Notes under the pieces: generated by a model
The model's input: only the letters and a program-made list of their open reading frames with translations
What the model was told of the DNA's origin: nothing
Databases searched by the model: none
Assembly: GCA_022848865.1 (NCBI GenBank)
Contig: JAJISE010000010.1
Coordinates: forward strand, 1-50,850
Direction: 5' to 3'
Length of the DNA stretch: 50,850 nt
Source: Candidatus Thermoplasmatota archaeon
GTDB lineage: Archaea; Thermoplasmatota; Thermoplasmata; RBG-16-68-12; JAGMCJ01
In this document: positions 2,247 through 16,826 of the stretch, one piece after another
How the letters are laid out: each line of letters begins with the position of its first letter
Numbering within the stretch: position 1 is the stretch's first letter
Made by a program: the position numbers and the translations under genes

Positions 2247-3512
2247 CTAGTCGCCTCGGATTTCTCTGAGAATCTCCTCCGCCCGGTCCATCCGAACATT
2301 CCTCTCTCGAACGAGAATCTCGACGATCTTGTCAATCTCATCCTCCCTCGCTCCGACGCTTGTCGCGATGTTCCTCGCATGAAGGGACATGTGCCCCCGC
2401 TGTATCCCCTCGGTCGCTAGAGCGCGGAGGGCGGCGAAGTTCTGTGCAAGTCCGAGGGCCGCGAATACCTCCCCCAATTCGCTAGCCGTCTTGACTCCGA
2501 GTATTCTAACGTTGACGCGTGCTGTCGGGTGGACCTTGGTCGCACCGCCGACAAGGCCGACCGCCATGGGGACCTCGATCCCGCCGACCAGGTTGCCGTC
2601 CGCGTCCTCTCTGTACGTCGTCAGCGGTCGGTACTGCCCGGTCATCGACGCGTAGGAGTGGCATCCCGACTCGATCGCTCTGGAATCGTTCCCAGTGGCT
2701 ATCACCGCAGCGCTTATCCCGTTCATCACTCCCTTGTTGTGCGTCGCAGCCCTGAAGGGGTCCGCCTTCGCGAACTCATATGCCTCGAGGATGCCATCGA
2801 CGACCTCTTCCCCGCCAATCAAATCCCTATCGAAGACGGCCTCTGCGCGGGCGAGCCGGTGCTCTGCGAGATTCGAGATGATCCTCAGGTACACCTTTCC
2901 TCCCGTGGCTCTCTCGATGAGGGGGGCGACGGCCTCCGCCATAGTGTTCACCGCGTTGGCTCCCATCGCGTCCCGGCAATCGACGAGGATGTGGGTGATG
3001 ACCATCGGACCTCTGTCCGTCGATATCACGCGCACCTCAACGTCCCGGGCTCCTCCTCCGTACTTCACGAGCATGGGGTCCTTCGAATTGCAGAGGTCCA
3101 TTATCTCGTCCTTCTTCTCCAATATCGCCGACTTCGCCTCTTCCGGGTCAGCAACCCCGGTCAACTGAATCTGTCCAATCATCACTGGGTCCGTGCTGGA
3201 TGTCGTGAACCCTCCCCTTTGGCGGGCGATCTTCGCGGCATTCGACGCCGCCGCCACGACGGAGGGCTCCTCTATGGCCATCGGAATGAGATAGTCTGTT
3301 CCGTTGATGAGGAAGTTCACCGCGATTCCGAGTGTCACGGGCATCGTTCCGATAACGTTCTCTATCATCCTGTCCGCTTGATCGACGGACAAGGCTCCGG
3401 TGTTGGAGATGATCGAGACCTCCTCATCCGTGAGATCCGCGAAGTCCCTGACGATCTTGAGCCGTTCCTCGGGGGTCTTCTTGTAGAATCCTTCGAGCCT
3501 AGAGTCCTTCAT
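2247..3512 (-). CDS. mvaA: Hydroxymethylglutaryl-CoA reductase, class II
   Basis: Catalyses reduction of HMG-CoA to mevalonate, the committing step for archaeal isoprenoid lipids. The class II (Pseudomonas mevalonii-like) family motifs are visible in order: ENVIG near residue 51, the catalytic Glu in [11 protein letters not shown] near 80, DCRDAMGAN near 178, the catalytic Lys in [10 protein letters not shown] near 258, the Asp in ATGNDSRA near 274, and the catalytic His in GHMSLHARN near 375. At 421 residues it has the usual class II length and no membrane anchor. A CCATAAAC TATA-like element lies about 45 bases before the start, suggesting a short leader. It is transcribed alone; a separate transcript encoding a small zinc-ribbon protein lies upstream. 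Confidence 0.97.
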
Positions 3513-4093: not shown

Positions 4094-7000
4094 CTATTCG
4101 CCCGTGATCTTCCTGAGGTTCTCCTCGTACACTTCCTTGGAGATCTTGCCTTCGTCGTACGCCTTCCTCAGCCTCTCCAGTCTGGGGTCCTCCTCGGGCG
4201 GTGTTTCAGGCGGTTCTTCCTCGGCGGGCGGCTCTTCGACAGGTTCGGGCTCCTCCGGTTCCAGCTCCTCGAGGGGCTCCTCCTCGCGGACCTCGATCTT
4301 CTCCGCTTCCTCGATATCCTCCTCTGGCGGTTCCTCCAGCTCTTCGGGCTCTTCCCCCATCTCTTCCAGCTCCTGGAGCTCCTCCTCGAGTTCCTCATCC
4401 AGGTCCTCGAGCTCTTCTTTCTCCTCGGGACGCATCCTCGTGCTGAACAGGTATCCGATGACGAGTCCGACGACGAGAAGGAGGACAGCGACCATCCACG
4501 GGATGAGCGAGGGCGCGGGTCCGTAGCTCACGACCCTCATCGCCGTCTGCACGTTGCCCGCCTCGTCCGTGGACTCCACTATGATGATGTTGGGTCCCCA
4601 GCTCAGTGTCACGTCCTCGGAGAAGCTTCCATCGAGTTCCGTCTGAAGGAAGCGACCGTTTATGGTCACGGTGCTTCCCGCCTCGGCAGTGCCCCTTACC
4701 CTTACCGTGTTGGACGTCGTCGTCTCGGGGACGGACTCCAGCGTGAGGGCGGGAGGCGTGGTGTCCCTGGTGACCAATCTGCTGTCGGACGCTGTGTTCC
4801 CCGCGGGGTCGGAGAGGAGGAACGTGATGTTGTTCTCTCCCTCGAGCGGGAGCGGAATGACGGCGTAGAAGGAGCCGTCGCTCTGGACGGGGACGTCGAT
4901 GCCCGCGATCCTCAATGACAGCATGTCCAGGTCCAGATGCTCCTCCGGCAACTGGGAGACGAGATCATCGACCAGTCCGCTGAACACTGCGAACTCACTG
5001 TTCGTCACCGCAGGATAGTCTATCCGCCCGATTGTCGGAGAGACGGAATCCGAGACGATCTCGATCGTTGCAGAGTTGTCGTTTGCCGAGACGAGATCAC
5101 CCGAGGCGGTCAAGCCGAACCAATCAACAACTCGGACCTGAATGAAATTCGTTCCATTGACGAGTGTGATCGTCGTCTTGAACCTCCCATCTGGACCCGC
5201 CGTCAGCATTTCCGATCTGACGAAGACAGTGGCAAGGGCCTCCGTCGTCCCGCTGACCGTCACCTCGCTCACCTGAGTGTGCATCGTTGTCGGTTGGTCG
5301 AGCACGAGCGGCGGGGACTGCGTATCAACGACTATTATGAAGTCCCTTATGATCAAGTTCCCGGCAGCATCACCAGTGACGAATGTGATGTTGTGCACGC
5401 CCTCGGAAAGCGGAGCGACGGGGCTATACAGGATTCCCCCTGCCCAGTATCCATATGCGTCTTCGGCGTTCCTCACGAACTTGATGTCGATCGTGCTCCA
5501 GGATGTGGAATCCTCGCCATCGAAGTACACGGCGCACAGCCCGGGATCTATCTCTCCTCTCTCAAGATCCAACACAGCGACGGAGAACTGAGGCTGGATC
5601 TGGTTCGTCGTTCTGTTGTCCAGGTAGTTCACCTGCTTCTCACCGGTGCTCATGACAAGATCCCCCATCGACGGCGGCGTTCTGTCAAGCGTGATAGTCA
5701 CTGGGATGAGCACGGCCTCGCTCGCTCCAGGCGGACCGAGCGTGAGCACGCCACCGTAGTCCCGGTCCTCAGTGTCGCCCATGAACTCCCAGGACATCCC
5801 GAAGTTGAGCGGCGTGTTCGCCGTGATGGGGCCTTCTGGGGCATCGACCATCTTGTAGCCCTCTATGCCAGCTATCGTGACGCTTATCTCGATGTCGAAG
5901 TGACCCGGGTCCCTAGTGTCAAAACCGAGGACCTTGATGATATACTGGCCATCCTTCGGGGCCTTCAGCTTGACCTGCTCGTCCGCGTCCGCATCAGCAC
6001 CGTATTCGACGAACTCGCCCGGTTCCGCTTCCCCGTTCCCGTTGGCGTCCAGGAAGATCCCGAGGTCCAGGTCTGGCGCATCAGCCTTTCCCCATATGTG
6101 AACGTCGAAGATGAGGGCGTCCTTGACCCTGACAACGTAGGTGTAGTTCCCGTCGGCAAGACCCTCCACGAACGTTCTCTCGCCCGCGTAGAGCTCTTCG
6201 ACGATCTTCTTGTCGAAGAATATCTCCACGTCATCGAACCTCTCCATCTGGGCCGGACCTACAGCGCTCGTCTCCATCCCCATCGGCCAATCGAAGTTCG
6301 ACGTGAAGGTCATCCGCGCCTCTCCGGAGAGTTGATTCGTGACCTTCCTGAGCTCCACTGGAGTGATCTCCACCCAGCCGACCTGGCCCGAGACGTTCTC
6401 CTCGGGCTCTTGTGTTCCATTGAACATCACGCAGTGGAGGGCGATGACGTTCAGCCCCGGTCTCAGTGGAGGGGTTATGATCTCCTGGCTCGTGTTCGTG
6501 ACGGTGTTGAATTCATCGTCGTCCTCGCTGGCTCCGGTCTCGCTCAGCGTGTAGCCTCCGTACCTGCTGCTGTCCGAGAAGTAGTCCGCATAGGCGGGGG
6601 CCGGATCCTTACCAAACGCGTGAATGTCAATGTCGGAGGGCTTGAGATTCCAGGAGACATCGATATAGAACTTGTAGTTGTAGGGATCTATGAACTTGCC
6701 CTGTCTCGGGACATCGATGTAGAAGTACCTCCAGTCACCGGATCTCTCAAGGTCGCCCTCGAACCCGCCTCCCATGCCCCCTCCTATCTTCGTGTTGTTG
6801 AAGAGGTCCTGGGATATCGAGGAGAACCCGCCGAACGTGAAACGTGTCTCCCTCGAAGCGACGTTGACGAGCACGGGGATCACCGATACAAGACCGTTCG
6901 CGTCAAGGTAGATTCCTCCCTCGTAGGAGCCGATGCCAACATCCGGAGGCAGGGTCATCGTTGCAGTGAGGTCCTGCGTGCCGCCAACCGGTATCGTGAA

Positions 7001-10000
7001 CGAAGTGCTGTCCAAGGAGAGCCAGTCCCAATCGAACCTCTCGAAGAACTCGATCTTGAGTTTCCAGTACTGGCCTTCGTCCAGCTTTGTCGGCGTTGGC
7101 TTGAGGTTGATTATGAGCGCGTCATGGATCCTGGAAGCCGGGTCGTGAACCGTCGTCTCAAGGACATTGGCCACGTTGTTGCATCGCGTGAATGTGTTCG
7201 TCTCGGTCTGCTGCATAATCGTGTCCGGATAGTTCCAGTTTGGCCAGACGTCAATGTTCTCCCAGTCGCGAAGCTCCAGAATCATCACCGGATCCTGCGA
7301 CTCGCGTTTGATCATGCCATTGTCGTCCGTATCGATGTCTGTGAAGTTGGACCATGCCGTGACCTTCATCAGGTCCGCAGAATTCCACAGACCGGCGTCG
7401 ATTGGGGTCTGAACAAGCGTGTAGGTGTTCCACTGGAAAGGATCTGGCAGTATCTTTGTCAGTCCCGTGTCATTGATCCAGTATGTCAGCCTTCCGTCTG
7501 TGGAGTACCAGCTGTCGGTCCTCGTGACTCCATCGGTGTAGTACGTGGCGGTCTTCTTGAAGACCTCATCGCTAGCCTGAACGGAAACGGACGATGTCAA
7601 GTCCGTGTTCTCAACGGTGAAGTCGATCGAATCGCTCTCACCAGGGAACATCAGCTTTGCGAACGCCTCGGGTTTTCCGCCCGCGTAGAATCCTGGCACC
7701 CAGTACGTGGGATCAACAACTATCCCGCCAACATTCGCGGCCAGATCCACCGCCCTGCTCGCATTGACGAATCCAGCACCTTGCGACAGAACGTCATGGT
7801 TGATGTTGTCAGCCGATGACTTCAGTATCGCCTTCGCTTCCTGGACCGTCGGGAATCTCAGGTGGGTCGAGTAGAATGCCTCGTATATGAGCGCAACGAC
7901 GCCTCCCGTGATCGCCGCCGATACGTGAGAGCCTTCGAAGAGCCCCAACTTAAGAGCCGTCATATTGCTCCCGTCAGGCCCTCTCCACAGCGGATCATCG
8001 ACGTTTGCGACTCCGATCGTGACAACATCTGGCTTTGGGATTCCCATGGGCGTCGGACCCTTCGAGGAGTATGGCATGACATCTCCCCATTTCGGATTGG
8101 ATCCTTCCTTCGCGCCATAGGATGCATACGCGGACGAGTCTCTTGTGTAGTCGGTTGCGACGCCAGCCGTTATGACCGCTGTCGCAGAGGACGGCGAGTT
8201 GATGGTCCCATATCCGAATCCGTCGTTGCCCGCTGCGGTGACGAACACGGTACTCGCCCCCGACCGCTTGACGGACGCCCAGTCGGCGAACCGACTGAAC
8301 ACATCCCATCCGCTGTTGAGCAAGCGTGCGTAGTTGAAGCCGTTGATCACTATGTCCGCCTCATCCCCTGAGTCCGGAACTCCGTCGTATCCCTCCACCG
8401 CAAAGGACCAGGCAGCGAAGATATTGTCAAAGGCGTTGGGGATCATGATGATCGTCGCGTTCGGGGCGATTCCCAGGACCCTTCCTATGTCCGGGTCGCC
8501 CAGGTCCGTGTCCAGCCTGCCCTGGCCCACAATCGCTGATGCCATCCTAGTTCCATGGTACTTCTGGAACCCCAGTTCTCCCGCGAACGCTACAAGCTCC
8601 CCGTTCTTCGGAACGATGCAGTCCTCGATCAGATTGTCCTCGCAGTAGACATCCGAGTAGGGGATGTACGTCTCCCCGTCCGAAATGAAGTACACCATTC
8701 CCGCTGACAGGTCAGGGATTCCATCAGGTGTTGTGAGGTTCTGATTATCGCCTCTGAACGCAGCGGTTGCATTGAAGTCATCCAAGTATCCAACCTCGTT
8801 CCCGCGATAGAGAACCACGTCAGTGTCGTCGAAGACCTTGTCATTGTTGAGATCCACGTACACTCTCTCATAGGTGCCGTTGGTCCGGTTGTCCGCGACG
8901 AGTACGCCTATCGTCCCGAACGTCTTCACGAGATTCTCGCCGGGATGGTTTCCGAAGTGATAGACAGACCTAGTAGCGTTTTGCGGTGAGATATTCACTT
9001 TGTATATCTGGATCCTCCGGTACGCGAAGTTGGAGAGCGACCTGAAGCTGCTGTCCCATGTGACATCTCCCTGTATGTTGAAGTCCGTTGGGGCAGAGTC
9101 GTGAGGATGGGATCCGTTCTTGCCCACACTGAAAAGCTCAATGGCGAATCCTGGCGGGTCGCCCAGCGAACTTCTTGGTATTGCCATCTCGAAGAACCCG
9201 CTGTCAACATAATCACCATCCTTCAGGCTCTTGTATTTCTGGGATCCGCCTATGTCGATCAGTCTGGAGCCATTCCAGCGGGAACCTTCCCATTCGTAAA
9301 GGGTGGCATTCATGAACGTGTCGTTCTGGCTCCACGGGAATCCATCCTCGTCATAGCCCCAAAGGACACTTGTGTAATTGGCGTAGATGGCGAAGTCGGG
9401 GAGCTTGTGCTTGAATATGCCCTCTAGCTGCCCGGTGCCTATGTCCCACAGCTTGAGCTGTGTGTCCTCAGCGACAGTTGCTAGCTTGTCATCCGTGGGT
9501 GAAATGGAAACGCCGTTTATCTGGGCCTGGCTTGCCTGTTGGGAGAAGATCTCCACGAACTGGGGACCAGATTCCTGCCAGACTTTCGCTGTTCCCAGGA
9601 GGTCGCCAGCGGCAATCATGTCACCCGTCCATTCCAGATTCCTTACGTCACCGAAGAGCAATGTGAGATTCTCAACGGGATTCGCTCCCCAGACATCCCA
9701 TACCTTCACGTTGTAGGTTGTCTCTGCGGCGGATGATGCTAGCCTTGTCCCGTCGGGTGACCAGCAGATGCTCTGGATCTTCTGGGAATGTCCTTCAGGA
9801 TTTATCGGGGATCTCTGGAGGATAGTGCGTGGAATCCCCCCAGCGGGGTCATTCAGGTTCGTGGCGTTCACATTGTAGATGTAGACCTGCCTATCTCCCG
9901 AACCTATGGCAATGACATCGTTGTAGGCAAATGATGGATTGAAGGCTACCGAGTTCGGAGTGAACCCGTTCACCGGCTTCAGATAGCCTATTACGCTTCC

Positions 10001-11593
10001 ATCGTTGACATCGAGAACGTAGACCCTGTCCAGAAGGCCGCCCCCCACCGCGATCCAGGTCCCATTCTCGTTGAAACTCAGGAGGGCTCTTCCGTCAAAG
10101 ACGGTTCCATCAGGGATGGGTATCTCTCTAATCTGGCTCCCAGTTGTTGGATCCCAAATCCGCACGTAGCTTATCTCGGCCGTTGCCAGCAGACTCCCGT
10201 CCGGTGACCAAGCGACCGAGTGCGGTGCGGATAGATGCCCAGAGAGATCGAAGAGCAGGTCACCGTCCTTGCTCCATATCTTCACCATTCGGTCCTTTGA
10301 TGCAGTCGCGATGAGGCTTCCGTTCGGGTTGAATTGCACATCCGTGATAGAGTCGGAGTGGGAAGCATTCGTGTCTACGAGATTCCCTACGGGATCGTAC
10401 TCTGCACCAGACGTGGCATTGTCGATATCGATGTAGATGCCGTACGTCTTGTTCAGGGTGCCCATGCTCGTGTGGAATCCGAAGTACCAGAAGTCCTGGT
10501 CCCGTGTCACGAAGAGGTCTATCAGATCGAAGTCAGTCGTCTTCGCCCCCACAGGAGGCTGGTACTTCACCTCACCCGAATCGTCACTTCCCCACTGTTC
10601 ACGCTCGGCGAAGTCGTTCTTGCCATCGATCCTGATTCTGTGACTGACCGGGAAGTTGTCAGTACCGTTCTGAGTGGCGTTCACGAACCAGGTCTCGTCA
10701 GGATACTTGTTCTTCATGTACGTCGCGACGGACATCGGGTCGAAGACAATAGGCCACCCATAGTAAGGGGAGTAGTAGTCATAGGAAGCAGTCACCACGT
10801 CGGCAACGTTCAAGGGCGGTGTGAAGATGACTTGCCCCGTATCGTAGTCGATGGTGTAGCCTCCTGGCATGAGCGTCCCATTGACGTAAAGGGCCTCTGT
10901 GCTCGGAATCACCTTCTTGTGAACGAGTGTCGCATTGTCCTGCCCAGCAACCGCAGATTGCACGACGATTTCTCCGGTCGTGGAGTATGTCGTGGCGTCC
11001 CGCGCCTGAGTGCCAATCAGATCGAGATTCGCGAAGTCGACACCAGTGTCCGGTATGGCGATCTTAATGTCTTGGCCGGAGAAACCCTTGTCCCGGGCGG
11101 AATCGATTCCATGTCTCTCGTTGATCACATCCAGCGATGGGGCTGGGCCGTCTCCTCCGCTGTCCATCGGCAGGTTGGGTTCGGAGTACTCCGAGACACC
11201 CACAACGCCCTCGAGGCTCCCGATATCTGGGACGAGGGAGGCAGGGACCTCGAGGATCCTGACCGTCATCTCATACGATTCCTGCGTCAAGCCTGGCCCT
11301 TCCGAAGCGACCTTGTTCCCCGCCAGGAAGTCGTGTAGGATGTCTGGTCTGAACGTCATCACTGCAATCTTCTCGATTCCCGTGTTTTCGGGCTCTGTGG
11401 CCTCCTTCTCTCTCAGGGTTCCCAGACCGTCGTCCACACCGAACGTCCCATACGTTTCCCGATGCTCGATCATCGCGATTTGCCCGTCACTGTCCCCTAG
11501 CATCCCAAGCCCTGCCTGTGCTGCAGATGCCAACATGAGTATGCCAAGAAAGACAGCTTTGGCGAAAAGCCAAACTCGAGGTGATTCTGCCAT
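4094..11593 (-). CDS. Giant secreted S8 subtilase-like protein with nested WD40 propeller; nucleophile lost
   Basis: 2499 residues with an N-terminal signal sequence (hydrophobic 9-30). Subtilase landmarks are Asp182 (AIPDTGVDF), His1013 (YHGTRMAS) and oxyanion Asn1123 (AAGNDG). Where family members have GTS, this protein has GSH at 1221-1223, so the ungapped alignment puts His at the nucleophile position. Between Asp and His lies a very long insert: a CBM9/DOMON-like beta domain (about 300-400, resuming 733-850) that is itself interrupted by WD40 repeats (about 408-722, with KIWSKDG, RIWDPTTG, KVWDVWG, KLWDIGTG). C-terminal parts include jelly-roll and Ig-like domains, a TM helix near 2340, a long Glu-rich stretch and a final SHOCT-like helix pair (LERLRKAYDEGKISKEVYEE). 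It is probably a surface-anchored binding or scaffold protein. Start ATG 11593 has GAGGAGGA just upstream. Confidence 0.9.
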   Translation of the reverse strand: MAESPRVWLFAKAVFLGILMLASAAQAGLGMLGDSDGQIAMIEHRETYGTFGVDDGLGTLREKEATEPENTGIEKIAVMTFRPDILHDFLAGNKVASEGPGLTQESYEMTVRILEVPASLVPDIGSLEGVVGVSEYSEPNLPMDSGGDGPAPSLDVINERHGIDSARDKGFSGQDIKIAIPDTGVDFANLDLIGTQARDATTYSTTGEIVVQSAVAGQDNATLVHKKVIPSTEALYVNGTLMPGGYTIDYDTGQVIFTPPLNVADVVTASYDYYSPYYGWPIVFDPMSVATYMKNKYPDETWFVNATQNGTDNFPVSHRIRIDGKNDFAEREQWGSDDSGEVKYQPPVGAKTTDFDLIDLFVTRDQDFWYFGFHTSMGTLNKTYGIYIDIDNATSGAEYDPVGNLVDTNASHSDSITDVQFNPNGSLIATASKDRMVKIWSKDGDLLFDLSGHLSAPHSVAWSPDGSLLATAEISYVRIWDPTTGSQIREIPIPDGTVFDGRALLSFNENGTWIAVGGGLLDRVYVLDVNDGSVIGYLKPVNGFTPNSVAFNPSFAYNDVIAIGSGDRQVYIYNVNATNLNDPAGGIPRTILQRSPINPEGHSQKIQSICWSPDGTRLASSAAETTYNVKVWDVWGANPVENLTLLFGDVRNLEWTGDMIAAGDLLGTAKVWQESGPQFVEIFSQQASQAQINGVSISPTDDKLATVAEDTQLKLWDIGTGQLEGIFKHKLPDFAIYANYTSVLWGYDEDGFPWSQNDTFMNATLYEWEGSRWNGSRLIDIGGSQKYKSLKDGDYVDSGFFEMAIPRSSLGDPPGFAIELFSVGKNGSHPHDSAPTDFNIQGDVTWDSSFRSLSNFAYRRIQIYKVNISPQNATRSVYHFGNHPGENLVKTFGTIGVLVADNRTNGTYERVYVDLNNDKVFDDTDVVLYRGNEVGYLDDFNATAAFRGDNQNLTTPDGIPDLSAGMVYFISDGETYIPYSDVYCEDNLIEDCIVPKNGELVAFAGELGFQKYHGTRMASAIVGQGRLDTDLGDPDIGRVLGIAPNATIIMIPNAFDNIFAAWSFAVEGYDGVPDSGDEADIVINGFNYARLLNSGWDVFSRFADWASVKRSGASTVFVTAAGNDGFGYGTINSPSSATAVITAGVATDYTRDSSAYASYGAKEGSNPKWGDVMPYSSKGPTPMGIPKPDVVTIGVANVDDPLWRGPDGSNMTALKLGLFEGSHVSAAITGGVVALIYEAFYSTHLRFPTVQEAKAILKSSADNINHDVLSQGAGFVNASRAVDLAANVGGIVVDPTYWVPGFYAGGKPEAFAKLMFPGESDSIDFTVENTDLTSSVSVQASDEVFKKTATYYTDGVTRTDSWYSTDGRLTYWINDTGLTKILPDPFQWNTYTLVQTPIDAGLWNSADLMKVTAWSNFTDIDTDDNGMIKRESQDPVMILELRDWENIDVWPNWNYPDTIMQQTETNTFTRCNNVANVLETTVHDPASRIHDALIINLKPTPTKLDEGQYWKLKIEFFERFDWDWLSLDSTSFTIPVGGTQDLTATMTLPPDVGIGSYEGGIYLDANGLVSVIPVLVNVASRETRFTFGGFSSISQDLFNNTKIGGGMGGGFEGDLERSGDWRYFYIDVPRQGKFIDPYNYKFYIDVSWNLKPSDIDIHAFGKDPAPAYADYFSDSSRYGGYTLSETGASEDDDEFNTVTNTSQEIITPPLRPGLNVIALHCVMFNGTQEPEENVSGQVGWVEITPVELRKVTNQLSGEARMTFTSNFDWPMGMETSAVGPAQMERFDDVEIFFDKKIVEELYAGERTFVEGLADGNYTYVVRVKDALIFDVHIWGKADAPDLDLGIFLDANGNGEAEPGEFVEYGADADADEQVKLKAPKDGQYIIKVLGFDTRDPGHFDIEISVTIAGIEGYKMVDAPEGPITANTPLNFGMSWEFMGDTEDRDYGGVLTLGPPGASEAVLIPVTITLDRTPPSMGDLVMSTGEKQVNYLDNRTTNQIQPQFSVAVLDLERGEIDPGLCAVYFDGEDSTSWSTIDIKFVRNAEDAYGYWAGGILYSPVAPLSEGVHNITFVTGDAAGNLIIRDFIIVVDTQSPPLVLDQPTTMHTQVSEVTVSGTTEALATVFVRSEMLTAGPDGRFKTTITLVNGTNFIQVRVVDWFGLTASGDLVSANDNSATIEIVSDSVSPTIGRIDYPAVTNSEFAVFSGLVDDLVSQLPEEHLDLDMLSLRIAGIDVPVQSDGSFYAVIPLPLEGENNITFLLSDPAGNTASDSRLVTRDTTPPALTLESVPETTTSNTVRVRGTAEAGSTVTINGRFLQTELDGSFSEDVTLSWGPNIIIVESTDEAGNVQTAMRVVSYGPAPSLIPWMVAVLLLVVGLVIGYLFSTRMRPEEKEELEDLDEELEEELQELEEMGEEPEELEEPPEEDIEEAEKIEVREEEPLEELEPEEPEPVEEPPAEEEPPETPPEEDPRLERLRKAYDEGKISKEVYEENLRKITGE
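9428..10372 (-). other. WD40 beta-propeller nested in subtilase-like protein
   Basis: Residues about 408-722 of the 2499-residue protein. Repeating blades end in WD-type signatures: MVKIWSKDG, VRIWDPTTG, VYVLDVNDG, VYIYNVNAT, VKVWDVWGA, AKVWQESG and LKLWDIGTG. Many start with SPDG/NPNG turns followed by LIATAS or LLATAE. Seven blades fit. The flanking halves (YGIYIDIDNATSG before; LYEWEGSRWNG and FFEMAIPRSSLG after) look like one CBM9-like domain split in the middle. Confidence 0.75.
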
Positions 11594-11786: not shown

Positions 11787-14700
11787 ATGAAAGCAGGAAA
11801 TAATCGCAGAGTGCTAGTCGGACTTATGGTCGGACTCGTCGTGATCGGAATGGTTCTCCCGGCAAGCGCCACTAGCATTTCCACTGAAGAAGAACGCCAG
11901 TCTCCCGTAGAACCTTCCTTTCTTTGGTTCTACTACTCTGGATTGGAGGTAGACACGAGCGATTCCCAAGCCGTGATGGAGACATACGCCAACGTGGAAA
12001 CGGGAGACTATTACGTCATCCAGTATTCGGGCTATTTGACCGCTGACAGGGTGGAGAGGCTCGAGGACCTGGGCGTCGGATTGTATGAATACCTTCCGTA
12101 CAACGGCTACGTTGTGAGAATGGATGAACCGACTGTCTCAAAGGTGAGAAGCCTCGACTACATCAGGTTTCTAATGCCATACTACCCAGCCTTCAAGGTC
12201 TCCCCGGACCTGTTCGGATACGAGGTCGTGAAGGTGAAGGTGCATCTGTACCCAGATGTGGATTACGATCGGAACCTGAAGGAAATCGAAGACCTTGGAG
12301 TGGTCTATGGAACATCCACTCGTCATGGGACTGTGAATGTGATTGTCGCTGGGATCCAGATGGATGAACTCGTCGCCATCCCTGACGTAAGATATGTGGT
12401 GGAAGACTCTCCAATCGTCGTATACAACAACCGAGCAGCTACGCTGGAGGGTAACTACGACGCCCAGCAAAGCTCAATCAGCGGGTTGTACGATCCACTG
12501 TTGGGAGACCCGATAGCGTTGACTGGTGAAGGGGAAGTCATAGGATTCGCCGACACGGGATTCGACACGGGTTTCGTTACTAGCGGTCATTACGACTTCT
12601 TCTTGGGTCCTGGCCCTGGCTGCAACAGAGACAGGGTTTTGTCGATAAGGGCGCATACGGGACATACAGACGATCCTGACGGTCACGGAACCCACGTAGC
12701 GGGGGACGCCCTCGGCAATGGGTACATCAAGGAGTTTGTGGACGGAGTCTTCGACCCGTGCGATGCTGACTACACGGGTGGATACGCGGGCGTGGCCCCA
12801 GAAGCAGAGCTTACTTTCGATTCCTGCGGGTCTGGGGGCGGCCTGCTTGTTCCTACACCGGATGTGTGGGAATTCCAGTACGCGGATGGCGCAAGACAGC
12901 ACTCCAACAGCTGGGGACCGCAGTCCGTGCAGAACACCTACGGGCCCACCGCAATCGCCGTTGACGGCTTCATGTGGGACAATCCAGATGCCCTCGTTCT
13001 GTTTGCGGCTGGGAATGACGGACCCGCGTGGAACACTGCCAGCGGCGGGGGAAACGCTCACAACACTCTCAGTGTAGGAGCCGGAGAAAACGACCGCCCC
13101 TCCGAGGGCGCAGGGTCGGACGACCCCTCACAGCTTTCCTCCTACAGTAGCCGAGGACCTGTGGAAAACAGGCTCAAACCCGATATCGTCGGCACGTCGG
13201 AGCTTGCAGGTCCGCATTCGAGTCAAGCCGCGTACAATGAGTACTCTGACATCACGGACTACCAGTACTACAATCTGCCTGGCTCGTATGCGAACGCGGA
13301 TTACTGGTATATGGGTGGCACATCAGCATCGACGCCGCGAGTCGCGGGACAATCTGCGCTGGCAAGGGAGTTCTACAGGGAGTACCACGGTCTCACGGTC
13401 AGCGAAATCACATCTCCCCTCGTGAAAGCGACACTCATCAATGGTGCAACCGACATGGGATACGGCTATCCCAGTTATGACCAGGGTTGGGGAAAGGTGA
13501 ACATCAAGAACTCCTTGTTCCCGACGGCGCCTAGAACCAACCAGTGGAGCACCGGCAACCTCGGTGCAGGAGAGCTTTGGGACGCCGCCACACACGGCGG
13601 CATGAACCTCAACATCCGCTCTTCGAGAGTCCCGCTAAAGATAACGATGGCTCACATGGCCCCGATGGGCTCCTTCCTTCAGGACGACCTTGACCTCGAG
13701 GCAATCTCCCCGAGCGGTGTGGTCTACAAGGGCAACCTCTTCGCAACCGAGAACAACTATCCCGAGTACGATGATTGGTCCTATCCTGATCCGGGCAACC
13801 TTGACTGGGACGGCGACTACTACTTCACACTCGACATGGACACAGATGATGACTACAACTCAGTGGAGAACATCTTCGTCGAGGAGCCCGAGCTGGGGAT
13901 TTGGACAGTGAAAATCGTGGGTGACGGAAATGCCATCCACAATCCTCCGTTCGGGATAATCTTCTCTGCAGATGTAGGACCGATCAGGGACTACCACGTT
14001 GCTCTGACGACGGTGAACCCGCTCAGATACACGGTTCATCCTGGCGGGTCAGCCGCTTTCTCCTTCAACGTCCTGAACTTCGGATTGTTTCAGGACACCA
14101 TCGCAATGGGTGAGACGGCAGTTTCCCCACCCACTCCACTGATAACGGTCGCATACAAGAACAACACCGGCGCCACTGTCACGGATCTTGCGCTGGAATC
14201 CAACGAGGGCAGGGACCTGACGGCCATAATCTCCGCGGATCCACTGCTTGCCACAGGCGCATACACGTTCTGCATCAAGGGGACGTCCCAGAACGACATC
14301 ACCGATCCAATCGCGTCAGATAGGCTCTGCCTCGTGGTGGATGTCATTCAGCAGAGGCTCCCTAGGGTGATACAGGTCACCAATGAGACCTACAGCCAGA
14401 CGGAGCCACACATCGTCGCCTTCAACGACGGCTTCACGGATCACGTCTTCATCGCGTACAAGGCGGAAGCGACTGAAGGAACGCGAGTGGAGGTCAAGCA
14501 TTCGACAGACGGGGGGCTCACGTTCGGAGCCCCGAACAGGATAACGTGGGTGCCAGATGGCCCGACCGATATCCGCATGACATACTTCAATGACAGCTCC
14601 ACGAACTGGTCGCATCGTGTGTTCATAACATGGCACGGCAACGACCCCGCCATCTCCGCCGTCGATGATAGAAGCGACTGGGTGTATGTGGCATACTCGG

Positions 14701-16826
14701 ACGCGCCATACGCCTCTTGGACCCTGAGTCACGTTGACACGAACTCCGGACCGCGCTGGCACAATGTGAAGAGAATGACGTTCCTGCTGCCACTTCCAAG
14801 TCCGCCTTCAGGACCTTCGGACCAGCTCCTGTTGATCAATGAGGTCCTCGAATATTCCTTTAGCGGACAGCCGGATCCCACTCAGGTTTCCGTGCTCGCG
14901 TTCTTCTCGTACGATGGAGGCGACACATGGACGAACAAAACACCCAACGCGGTGATATCACCGCAGGACGGGAACTACCACTTCTTCCCGAACGGATTCG
15001 TGGATCAGAACGGCGTAGCTTGGATCATCTACTACTGGAGACTTGCCGGTTCCGGTCAGAACAAGAGAGACCTTTGCTTCCAGTACTTCGACGGGGCCAG
15101 TTTCCATCCAAACCTCGGTATGAAACAGGACATCACGAATACACCTGGTAGCCTGATGTTCCCTGCGGGAGTCAGCACAGGTGAAGGGCCCAGTGGAAAC
15201 AGAGTCTATGATGTCTTCACTCAGAGCGTGACTTCAGATGAGGACAAGCAGATGTTTGTGGTCTATTCGGACGATATGGGCGCCACTTGGGAACCATGGG
15301 ACCATAACCCCCCCTGGACACCAGACTCGACACAGCTCAACGTGCCATACGGAGGCATTGTGAGTCAGACATACTACGTCACCAGACCGGTCCTGGACAT
15401 CGATGACGCCTCGAACACGCTCGTGGTCACATTCTACGAGGAAGACACGATCCCATTACTCGGATCTCCGAATATCCACGTGGTTTTCTCACAGGATGGT
15501 TATGCCTCCGGAGTGACGTCGGAGCTGACGGCTGATGCGTACGGAAAGGGCCAGCCCATAACCGATACGATTGACACGACCATCTTCACGACATACCATG
15601 CAAGGAGCCAGAAGGGTGACACGGACATCTATCTCAGGATATACAACTGGGATTGGTGGAACGACGCTGACAACCTGGGTCCAGTGACAACTGTTGTTGC
15701 ATCCAATCCGAACCCGTTCAACCTAACTGCGTACAGCCAGTTCCTGCTGACCGGGAACGTTGATGACGTGAGCACTGGCTATAACAACATCGCCGCAGCG
15801 GAGTACTTCCTTCAGGATTTCAGACCTACGCCCGCGCAGGACGGTACTGGAACCTCCATGAGCGCAACGGACGCGGGATTCGACAGCCCGATAGAGGGCG
15901 TCTCTGCCGTCGTCGACGTCCCTGGCAATTGGCTCCTCGGGCAGTGCAAGAAAGCATGGGTACACGGCCAGGACATCTTGGGCTATTGGGGAGATCACGA
16001 ATATGTGGAGATCTGCCTGACGGCTGTTGGCGCCCAGAAGCCGGCCATGCCGGTGATGACCGACGCCCTACTCTCACCTGCTATCGCCGACGTGACACTC
16101 AACTGGGACGCTTCGCCCGACGATGGGTCGGGAGAGATGGACATTGTCCACTACGGGATTCACAGAGCGACGAGCTATCTCGGACCTTATCAGAACGTGG
16201 GCAATGTCACAGCAACGCAGAGCCCATCGTACACGTGGACCGACCTCGGAACGGGCCATGGAGATCCCCTGAACTACTTCTACTGTGTCAGGGCGTTTGA
16301 CGGCGTCCTCGAGTCGGAATGTCCGGACATCGGGGCCAAGTTCACGATGCCGCTCACGGCGGGAATCCACTTGATATCCATTCCTGTCAGGGCATCGGAT
16401 CCCAGCGTAGAGAGCATCTTCCAGACAATCAGCGTCGCCAGGGTGTGGACGTATGTCGCATCTGACACTGCCGATCCCTGGAAGACCTGGAGTTCGGTGA
16501 AGAAATACACGGACCTCCCAGCGATAGATATCACGATGGGTCTTTGGGTCGATGTCTCAGTAGGTGGGGATCTGACCGTGGCTGGTCTGGTTCCGAGATC
16601 TGTCTCAGTGACCATGGAAAAGGGCTGGAATCTCATCGGTGTTCCAACATTCCTGGATTACATCGTGAGTGACACTGGTGCGACCGAGGCAGAGGGCTAT
16701 GACGGAGCCGCGCCACCGTACTATCTCAGGAAGATCAACCTGTTCGATCCGTTGGTCACTGGAGAGGCCTACTGGGTCCACAAGAGCGCAGCTATAGCTT
16801 GGCCAGTAGACAACGCGATTCCATAG
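11787..16826 (+). CDS. Secreted subtilisin-like serine protease (S8) with Asp-box repeats
   Basis: 1679 residues from ATG 11787, which follows GGAGG at the right distance; an upstream in-frame start at 11745 is less likely because the signal peptide begins at MKAGNNRRVLVGL. A propeptide-like region (to about 240) precedes the S8 domain. The catalytic set is intact: Asp256 (FADTGFD), His300 (DGHGTHVAG), Asn410 (AAGNDGP) and Ser513 (GGTSASTPRVAG). After the protease come a P-domain-like beta region, sialidase-type Asp-box repeats (STDGGLTF, SYDGGDTW, SDDMGATW), a fibronectin type III-like segment, and a C-terminal module of two GIHLISIP/GWNLIGVP halves. No C-terminal membrane helix is seen, so it is probably released or held by the surface layer. 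It should digest extracellular protein, consistent with the amino-acid catabolism elsewhere in the window. Confidence 0.93.
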   Translation: MKAGNNRRVLVGLMVGLVVIGMVLPASATSISTEEERQSPVEPSFLWFYYSGLEVDTSDSQAVMETYANVETGDYYVIQYSGYLTADRVERLEDLGVGLYEYLPYNGYVVRMDEPTVSKVRSLDYIRFLMPYYPAFKVSPDLFGYEVVKVKVHLYPDVDYDRNLKEIEDLGVVYGTSTRHGTVNVIVAGIQMDELVAIPDVRYVVEDSPIVVYNNRAATLEGNYDAQQSSISGLYDPLLGDPIALTGEGEVIGFADTGFDTGFVTSGHYDFFLGPGPGCNRDRVLSIRAHTGHTDDPDGHGTHVAGDALGNGYIKEFVDGVFDPCDADYTGGYAGVAPEAELTFDSCGSGGGLLVPTPDVWEFQYADGARQHSNSWGPQSVQNTYGPTAIAVDGFMWDNPDALVLFAAGNDGPAWNTASGGGNAHNTLSVGAGENDRPSEGAGSDDPSQLSSYSSRGPVENRLKPDIVGTSELAGPHSSQAAYNEYSDITDYQYYNLPGSYANADYWYMGGTSASTPRVAGQSALAREFYREYHGLTVSEITSPLVKATLINGATDMGYGYPSYDQGWGKVNIKNSLFPTAPRTNQWSTGNLGAGELWDAATHGGMNLNIRSSRVPLKITMAHMAPMGSFLQDDLDLEAISPSGVVYKGNLFATENNYPEYDDWSYPDPGNLDWDGDYYFTLDMDTDDDYNSVENIFVEEPELGIWTVKIVGDGNAIHNPPFGIIFSADVGPIRDYHVALTTVNPLRYTVHPGGSAAFSFNVLNFGLFQDTIAMGETAVSPPTPLITVAYKNNTGATVTDLALESNEGRDLTAIISADPLLATGAYTFCIKGTSQNDITDPIASDRLCLVVDVIQQRLPRVIQVTNETYSQTEPHIVAFNDGFTDHVFIAYKAEATEGTRVEVKHSTDGGLTFGAPNRITWVPDGPTDIRMTYFNDSSTNWSHRVFITWHGNDPAISAVDDRSDWVYVAYSDAPYASWTLSHVDTNSGPRWHNVKRMTFLLPLPSPPSGPSDQLLLINEVLEYSFSGQPDPTQVSVLAFFSYDGGDTWTNKTPNAVISPQDGNYHFFPNGFVDQNGVAWIIYYWRLAGSGQNKRDLCFQYFDGASFHPNLGMKQDITNTPGSLMFPAGVSTGEGPSGNRVYDVFTQSVTSDEDKQMFVVYSDDMGATWEPWDHNPPWTPDSTQLNVPYGGIVSQTYYVTRPVLDIDDASNTLVVTFYEEDTIPLLGSPNIHVVFSQDGYASGVTSELTADAYGKGQPITDTIDTTIFTTYHARSQKGDTDIYLRIYNWDWWNDADNLGPVTTVVASNPNPFNLTAYSQFLLTGNVDDVSTGYNNIAAAEYFLQDFRPTPAQDGTGTSMSATDAGFDSPIEGVSAVVDVPGNWLLGQCKKAWVHGQDILGYWGDHEYVEICLTAVGAQKPAMPVMTDALLSPAIADVTLNWDASPDDGSGEMDIVHYGIHRATSYLGPYQNVGNVTATQSPSYTWTDLGTGHGDPLNYFYCVRAFDGVLESECPDIGAKFTMPLTAGIHLISIPVRASDPSVESIFQTISVARVWTYVASDTADPWKTWSSVKKYTDLPAIDITMGLWVDVSVGGDLTVAGLVPRSVSVTMEKGWNLIGVPTFLDYIVSDTGATEAEGYDGAAPPYYLRKINLFDPLVTGEAYWVHKSAAIAWPVDNAIP

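Follow-up and report, generated by a model that had tools for sequence, protein, structure and literature searches.

The window analysed here, the whole 50,850-nucleotide stretch of a contig from a Candidatus Thermoplasmatota archaeon, carries a long open reading frame, P0001, that had been singled out in a reading made from the sequence alone. Its placement at 4094-11593 in that reading was correct, and the gene runs on the minus strand. The parts of P0001 and the two subtilase genes that bear on its interpretation are as follows.

4094..11593, minus: P0001, the nested, putative pseudosubtilase ORF (2499 aa; ATG at 11593, GGAGG upstream)
11513..11593, minus: apparent signal peptide, residues 1-27, ending in ASAAQA (read from the sequence)
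11144..11416, minus: propeptide-like region, residues 60-150, aligning with the N-terminal region of P0002 (28.1 kb)
10994..11143, minus: S8 fold, first piece: residues 151-200, Asp182 at 11048-11050 (alignment)
10766..10987, minus: small inserted beta module, residues 203-276, motif YTxDYxTGxVxFxxxL (alignment)
10379..10765, minus: interrupted host domain, first half, residues 277-405 (positions 1-139 of the intact-paralogue profile)
9413..10378, minus: WD40 seven-blade propeller, residues 406-727 (Pfam, blade profile, model and Foldseek)
8999..9412, minus: interrupted host domain, second half, residues 728-865 (positions 133-258 of the intact-paralogue profile)
8666..8998, minus: module VYVDLNNDxVFDxTD...DGIPDLSAG, residues 866-976, also present in paralogues
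7724..8665, minus: main S8 core, residues 977-1290 (Pfam PF00082, E = 3.1e-16)
4754..7723, minus: string of beta domains, residues 1291-2280 (paralogue alignment)
4526..4753, minus: Glucodextran_B/Ig-like domain, residues 2281-2356 (Pfam PF09136, E = 6.3e-30)
4442..4513, minus: membrane anchor, residues 2361-2384, followed by TRMRPEEK (read from the sequence)
4097..4441, minus: acidic tail on the cytoplasmic side; its end, residues 2470-2494, weakly resembles SHOCT (PF09851, E = 0.019, below the cut-off)
11787..16826, plus: P0003, an apparently secreted S8 subtilase with intact Asp256, His300 and Ser513, head to head with P0001
28056..34391, plus: P0002, a subtilase paralogue that lacks a propeller and whose triad motifs are intact, used for comparison only

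The apparent signal peptide and the C-terminal membrane anchor suggest that P0001 resides at the cell surface. Its closest named relatives come from metagenome-assembled genomes (MAGs) labelled Thermoplasmata or Candidatus Thermoplasmatota archaeon. The subtilase fold is identified by the PF00082 match, which reaches 60 bits against a cut-off of 21.8 over residues 1012-1274, and the key codons of the core lie at 8555-8557 (His1013), 8225-8227 (Asn1123) and 7925-7927 (His1223). Asp182 and His1013 are found where the sequence-only reading had put them, with 830 residues in between; for the paralogue at 28.1 kb that reading had given an insert of about 190 residues at this point, and the count comes to 208. 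Two small modules of P0001 can be mentioned here. The module at residues 866-976 possibly binds Ca, to judge from its motif. The beta module at residues 203-276 is missing in several orthologues in the alignment, and its YTxDYxTGxVxFxxxL motif is also seen in L009, L010, L012, L055, L110 and L111, at many different sites. It looks like a mobile module of these surface proteins and bears a weak likeness to a phage tail DUF2460 end.

P0001 has a well-supported three-level architecture, in which a WD40 propeller is nested in a host domain that is itself nested in the S8 fold. The innermost level is matched by Pfam PF00400 (E = 2e-27), and a blade profile places seven blades at residues 412-718. 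An AlphaFold2 model of residues 150-1290, computed with 28 orthologues as input, has a mean pLDDT of 81.2 and a pTM of 0.74, and a Foldseek search aligns the modelled propeller with 7bie, a seven-blade protein (TM 0.92, rmsd 2.2). With repeats above the cut-off and a predicted fold that closes with seven blades, the assignment of a WD40 propeller, including the seven blades of the earlier reading, is confirmed. That reading had also taken the sequences on either side of the propeller for one interrupted domain. The related subtilase L009, encoded on contig C61 of the same genome, carries this flanking domain unbroken, and 12 relatives with the domain intact supplied a host-domain profile. Put together, the two halves in P0001 align with this profile contiguously (positions 1-259, 186.5 bits), as expected for a single interrupted domain, and the full protein gives complementary matches, profile positions 1-139 at residues 279-416 and 133-258 at residues 728-855; in a shuffle control, 0 of 200 shuffles were listed above 5 bits. 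Among 200 genomes searched within the class, the proteins that share this arrangement, here called type A, are interrupted at about the same position of the host profile. Across the split, DP-AGKYINAV-AEHAPEFAVY in an intact relative corresponds to DP-VGNLVDTN-[about 320 aa]-KHKLPDFAIY in P0001. Profile matches, split point and loop alignment together indicate that a single short loop of a single domain received the propeller.

Since the genome itself encodes an uninterrupted version of the domain, homology is a stronger argument for the nesting than the model. In the full model both halves of the host domain are mostly confident except for a few loops. The Russian-doll anatomy proposed earlier, with the whole insert between Asp182 and His1013 of the S8 fold, is therefore supported by homology. 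The nested order is found in a single open frame in independent MAGs from families f1, f2, f3, f4, f9, f17, f18, f21 and f25; at least nine Thermoplasmata families thus share the design. That the nesting is an artefact of an assembly join or a frameshift fusion is untenable, because independent MAGs of nine families agree in both the order and the split loop; no evidence in favour of such an artefact was found, and it can be given practically no credence.

The host domain is beta-rich, and the CBM9/DOMON label that it had been given is tentative. For the two P0001 halves put together, Pfam returns no match even at an E of 10, and for the domains of the 12 intact relatives only stray sub-threshold matches to other families, so that neither set is recognised by Pfam as CBM9 (PF06452/PF16011). 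Likewise, no CBM9_2 (PF16011) was found in 145 genomes. Profile comparison of the host domain with CBM9 members by hhalign reaches at most 14% probability, with controls at 0.1-0.3%, a weak signal that is suggestive only. A search of solved structures in the PDB with the host-domain profile returned nothing significant. An isolated-domain model from the relative L055 gave no Foldseek match at E<=0.001; this result is uninformative because the model is poor (pLDDT 54).

The S8 core of P0001 retains D182, H1013 and N1123 and has His1223 in place of the catalytic Ser, so that the Asp-His-Ser triad and oxyanion Asn of an active S8 peptidase are not complete. In the alignment, the Ser is absent from all 25 type-A S8 cores. 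The GTS of active relatives becomes GSH in the genus of P0001 and GSD, GGD, SSD, GSE, GTD, GTE, STE, GSV or DTA in the other type-A orthologues, with Asp, Glu, His, Val or Ala replacing the Ser. Most paralogues retain GTS. The Ser is kept in P0002, in 7/7 rows first grouped as type C and in 15 of the 16 rows first classed as type B, the sole exception, L115, having later been assigned to type D. P0001 is thus probably a pseudosubtilase. In the first tree, L105, L113 and L111, further S8 homologues that lack the Ser, belong to neither clade A nor clade D, so catalysis was lost more than once. Although dead, the S8 core is under strong purifying selection and is not decaying: comparisons between species of the genus give it a dN/dS of 0.048-0.096, which is the lowest value among the domains or close to it. 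The propeller (0.15-0.20) belongs to the more rapidly evolving structured domains, a pattern consistent with a variable ligand but also with looser constraint.

Comparison with relatives, which were found with a seven-row alignment, can be used to place these changes in order. Type A forms one clade (support 99-100/96-97), and A and D group together (98/96), separated from relatives whose catalytic residues are intact, Thermococcus and Chloroflexi proteins among them. The type-D proteins (L211, L212, L213, L214, L215 and L115), some of them over 3000 aa long, have an unbroken host domain in which no propeller was detected; the active-site His is lost in all six and the Ser in four. The order of events is readable because intact relatives without the inner propeller exist. 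If the root is assumed to lie among the catalytically intact proteins, the events are most economically read as follows: the host domain came first, catalysis was lost in the ancestor of A and D or soon after, and the propeller was then inserted in A.

Propellers are also found elsewhere in related subtilases. In type B (L009, C61), a seven-blade propeller at residues about 630-962 lies in the module after the host domain, the counterpart of P0001 residues 866-976; no WD40 blades were seen in the type-B relatives L055 and L110. In type C (L010, L057-L059), WD40 repeats lie downstream of the protease core, at residues about 1306-1735 in the case of L010 (contig C14). L009 and L010 belong to the same genome as P0001 and have intact catalytic motifs, and since the WD40 repeats of the three proteins are at different sites, propellers occupy three places in one scaffold. 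Above the cut-off, WD40 repeats occur in this genome only in these three subtilases and in one stand-alone protein. Between the propellers of types A and B the similarity is clear (hhalign E 4.8e-36), but the stand-alone protein matches both as well. The three propellers may be copies of one element or separate captures; either would fit. A different downstream module is seen in the orthologue L106, where a NosD-type right-handed beta-helix follows the S8 core at residues about 2085-2255.

The genomic neighbourhood provides a possible partner. A P0003 homologue lies divergently upstream of the type-A gene at 14 of 16 loci examined, the contig ending just upstream at the remaining two, and the HGT and GTS motifs of these homologues are intact where readable. 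The head-to-head arrangement is thus conserved throughout the class. More distant P0003-like genes lie upstream of type-D and propeller-free type-B genes, so the pairing seems to be older than the propeller. Care must be taken in reading this arrangement, as a shared promoter may be the only connection between the head-to-head genes. In family f2, a lipocalin/CrtC-like gene (L122:4121-5554, minus) lies between the pseudosubtilase and the divergent protease. Downstream of P0001 are an HMG-CoA reductase gene (window 2247-3512, minus) and split resolvase/recombinase genes (308-2004, minus), and their homologues take the same position in f2 (L122, L123, L126 and L127).

Because the cutting residue has been lost and the nested design is both recurrent and selected, P0001 is probably a binding scaffold and not a protease. 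The fuller explanation that we favour, a membrane-anchored pseudosubtilase that serves as a binding scaffold and works with the neighbouring active protease, has in our judgement an even chance of being right. The dead S8 core, folded and rigid, would be the platform on which the propeller and the host domain are presented outside the cell, and these two would bind a protein or glycan ligand. P0001 could then dock the P0003-type protease or feed captured substrate to it, and the acidic cytoplasmic tail could report occupancy or tether the protein. It is the ligand binding, the partnership with P0003 and the tail signalling that we infer here. The sequence-only reading had already seen in P0001 a protease fold turned into a scaffold that displays binding modules at the cell surface. 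The scaffold part of that proposal gains from the clade-wide loss of Ser, the selected core and the apparent signal peptide and anchor; the CBM9-like identity of the displayed module is tentative. The missing Ser, the WD40 repeats of two paralogues and the head-to-head subtilase had all escaped that reading.

Alternatively, P0001 could be an adhesin or S-layer-like protein, in which the S8 fold is a leftover, the beta domains and propeller attach cells to particles or to one another, and there is no link to proteolysis. The apparent signal peptide, the membrane anchor and about 1000 residues of beta domains with Glucodextran_B/Ca_tandemer-type repeats would suit such a role, which we consider a tentative possibility. 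Against it, the dead core is more constrained than the beta domains and propeller, and the neighbouring S8 protease is conserved. P0001 might also still be a peptidase or hydrolase, with Asp182, His1013 and an acidic substitute for Ser forming a metal or acid-based centre. The replacement of Ser is non-random, with Asp or Glu in 19 of 25 type-A cores, and the oxyanion position is Asp or Glu in 15 of 25, many with Asp; all type-A proteins that have the region retain Asp182, 21 of 25 retain His1013, and the dN/dS of the core is very low. However, the genus of P0001 itself has His at the Ser position and retains the Asn, four type-A orthologues have lost the His, and the related clade D has the losses of His and Ser described above. 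These substitutions leave no constant catalytic residue set, and a rebuilt hydrolase is unlikely. There is a slim chance that the rebuilt site (Asp182, His1013 and the acidic substitute) is instead conserved and holds a metal or ligand. The protease core would then have become the central part of a surface receptor that senses or binds, and the nested propellers, having entered the scaffold separately at three sites, would serve as its recognition heads. Finally, a pseudosubtilase inhibitor or chaperone, regulating the folding or activity of active paralogues through its propeptide-like region or dead core, is very unlikely. P0001 and an active paralogue do have the N-terminal propeptide-like region in common, and several S8 paralogues with intact motifs are present in the same genome, but this region is the least conserved part of P0001 (7-27% identity to distant orthologues) and the propeller would be left unexplained.

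As a binding scaffold or otherwise, P0001 is a clean natural case of three-level domain nesting, and an example of a protease fold kept under strong selection after loss of its nucleophile, in archaea with many surface subtilases. It also carries a warning for annotation. On the strength of its Pfam S8 match, P0001 would be added to the extracellular peptidases from which protein degradation by sediment archaea is deduced.

In the open-access literature, we found no paper that describes a WD40 propeller within a subtilase, these archaeal proteins or such nested insertion. P0001 shares the S8 fold, a long insert and a multi-domain build with the S8 subtilases (PF00082) that have large Asp-His inserts, has archaeal relatives among them in Thermococcus, and presumably sits near the pyrolysin/TPPII group. 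It differs from them in lacking the catalytic Ser and in having as its insert a complete domain interrupted by a propeller. Among WD40 seven-blade propellers (PF00400), the closest solved folds are 7bie, 5yzv and WDR5, and both sequence and predicted fold match; those propellers are free-standing or terminal, whereas that of P0001 is predicted to be extracellular and is inserted by both ends in a loop of another domain. The host domain resembles CBM9/DOMON-like beta-sandwiches (PF06452) in the order of its motifs (IDGxxDF..., WYFGF, YIDxDN...). Use of the subtilase fold beyond cutting has precedents in PCSK9, an S8-fold pseudoprotease in which the fold serves a non-cutting role (PMC8551645), and in the plant SBT5.2(b), whose action does not depend on protease activity (PMC5074803). 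PCSK9 cleaves itself, however, whereas the clade of P0001 has lost the Ser, and P0001 differs from both in being archaeal, membrane-anchored and equipped with nested modules of binding type. Insertion of a whole domain into a loop of another is known from the integrin alpha-I domain, which is inserted in a beta-propeller and changes the ligand-binding head (PMC12422189). There a domain lies in a propeller, whereas in P0001 a propeller lies in a domain that lies in a third. P0001 thus combines known kinds, an S8 pseudoprotease, a WD40 propeller and domain insertion, and is not a new category.
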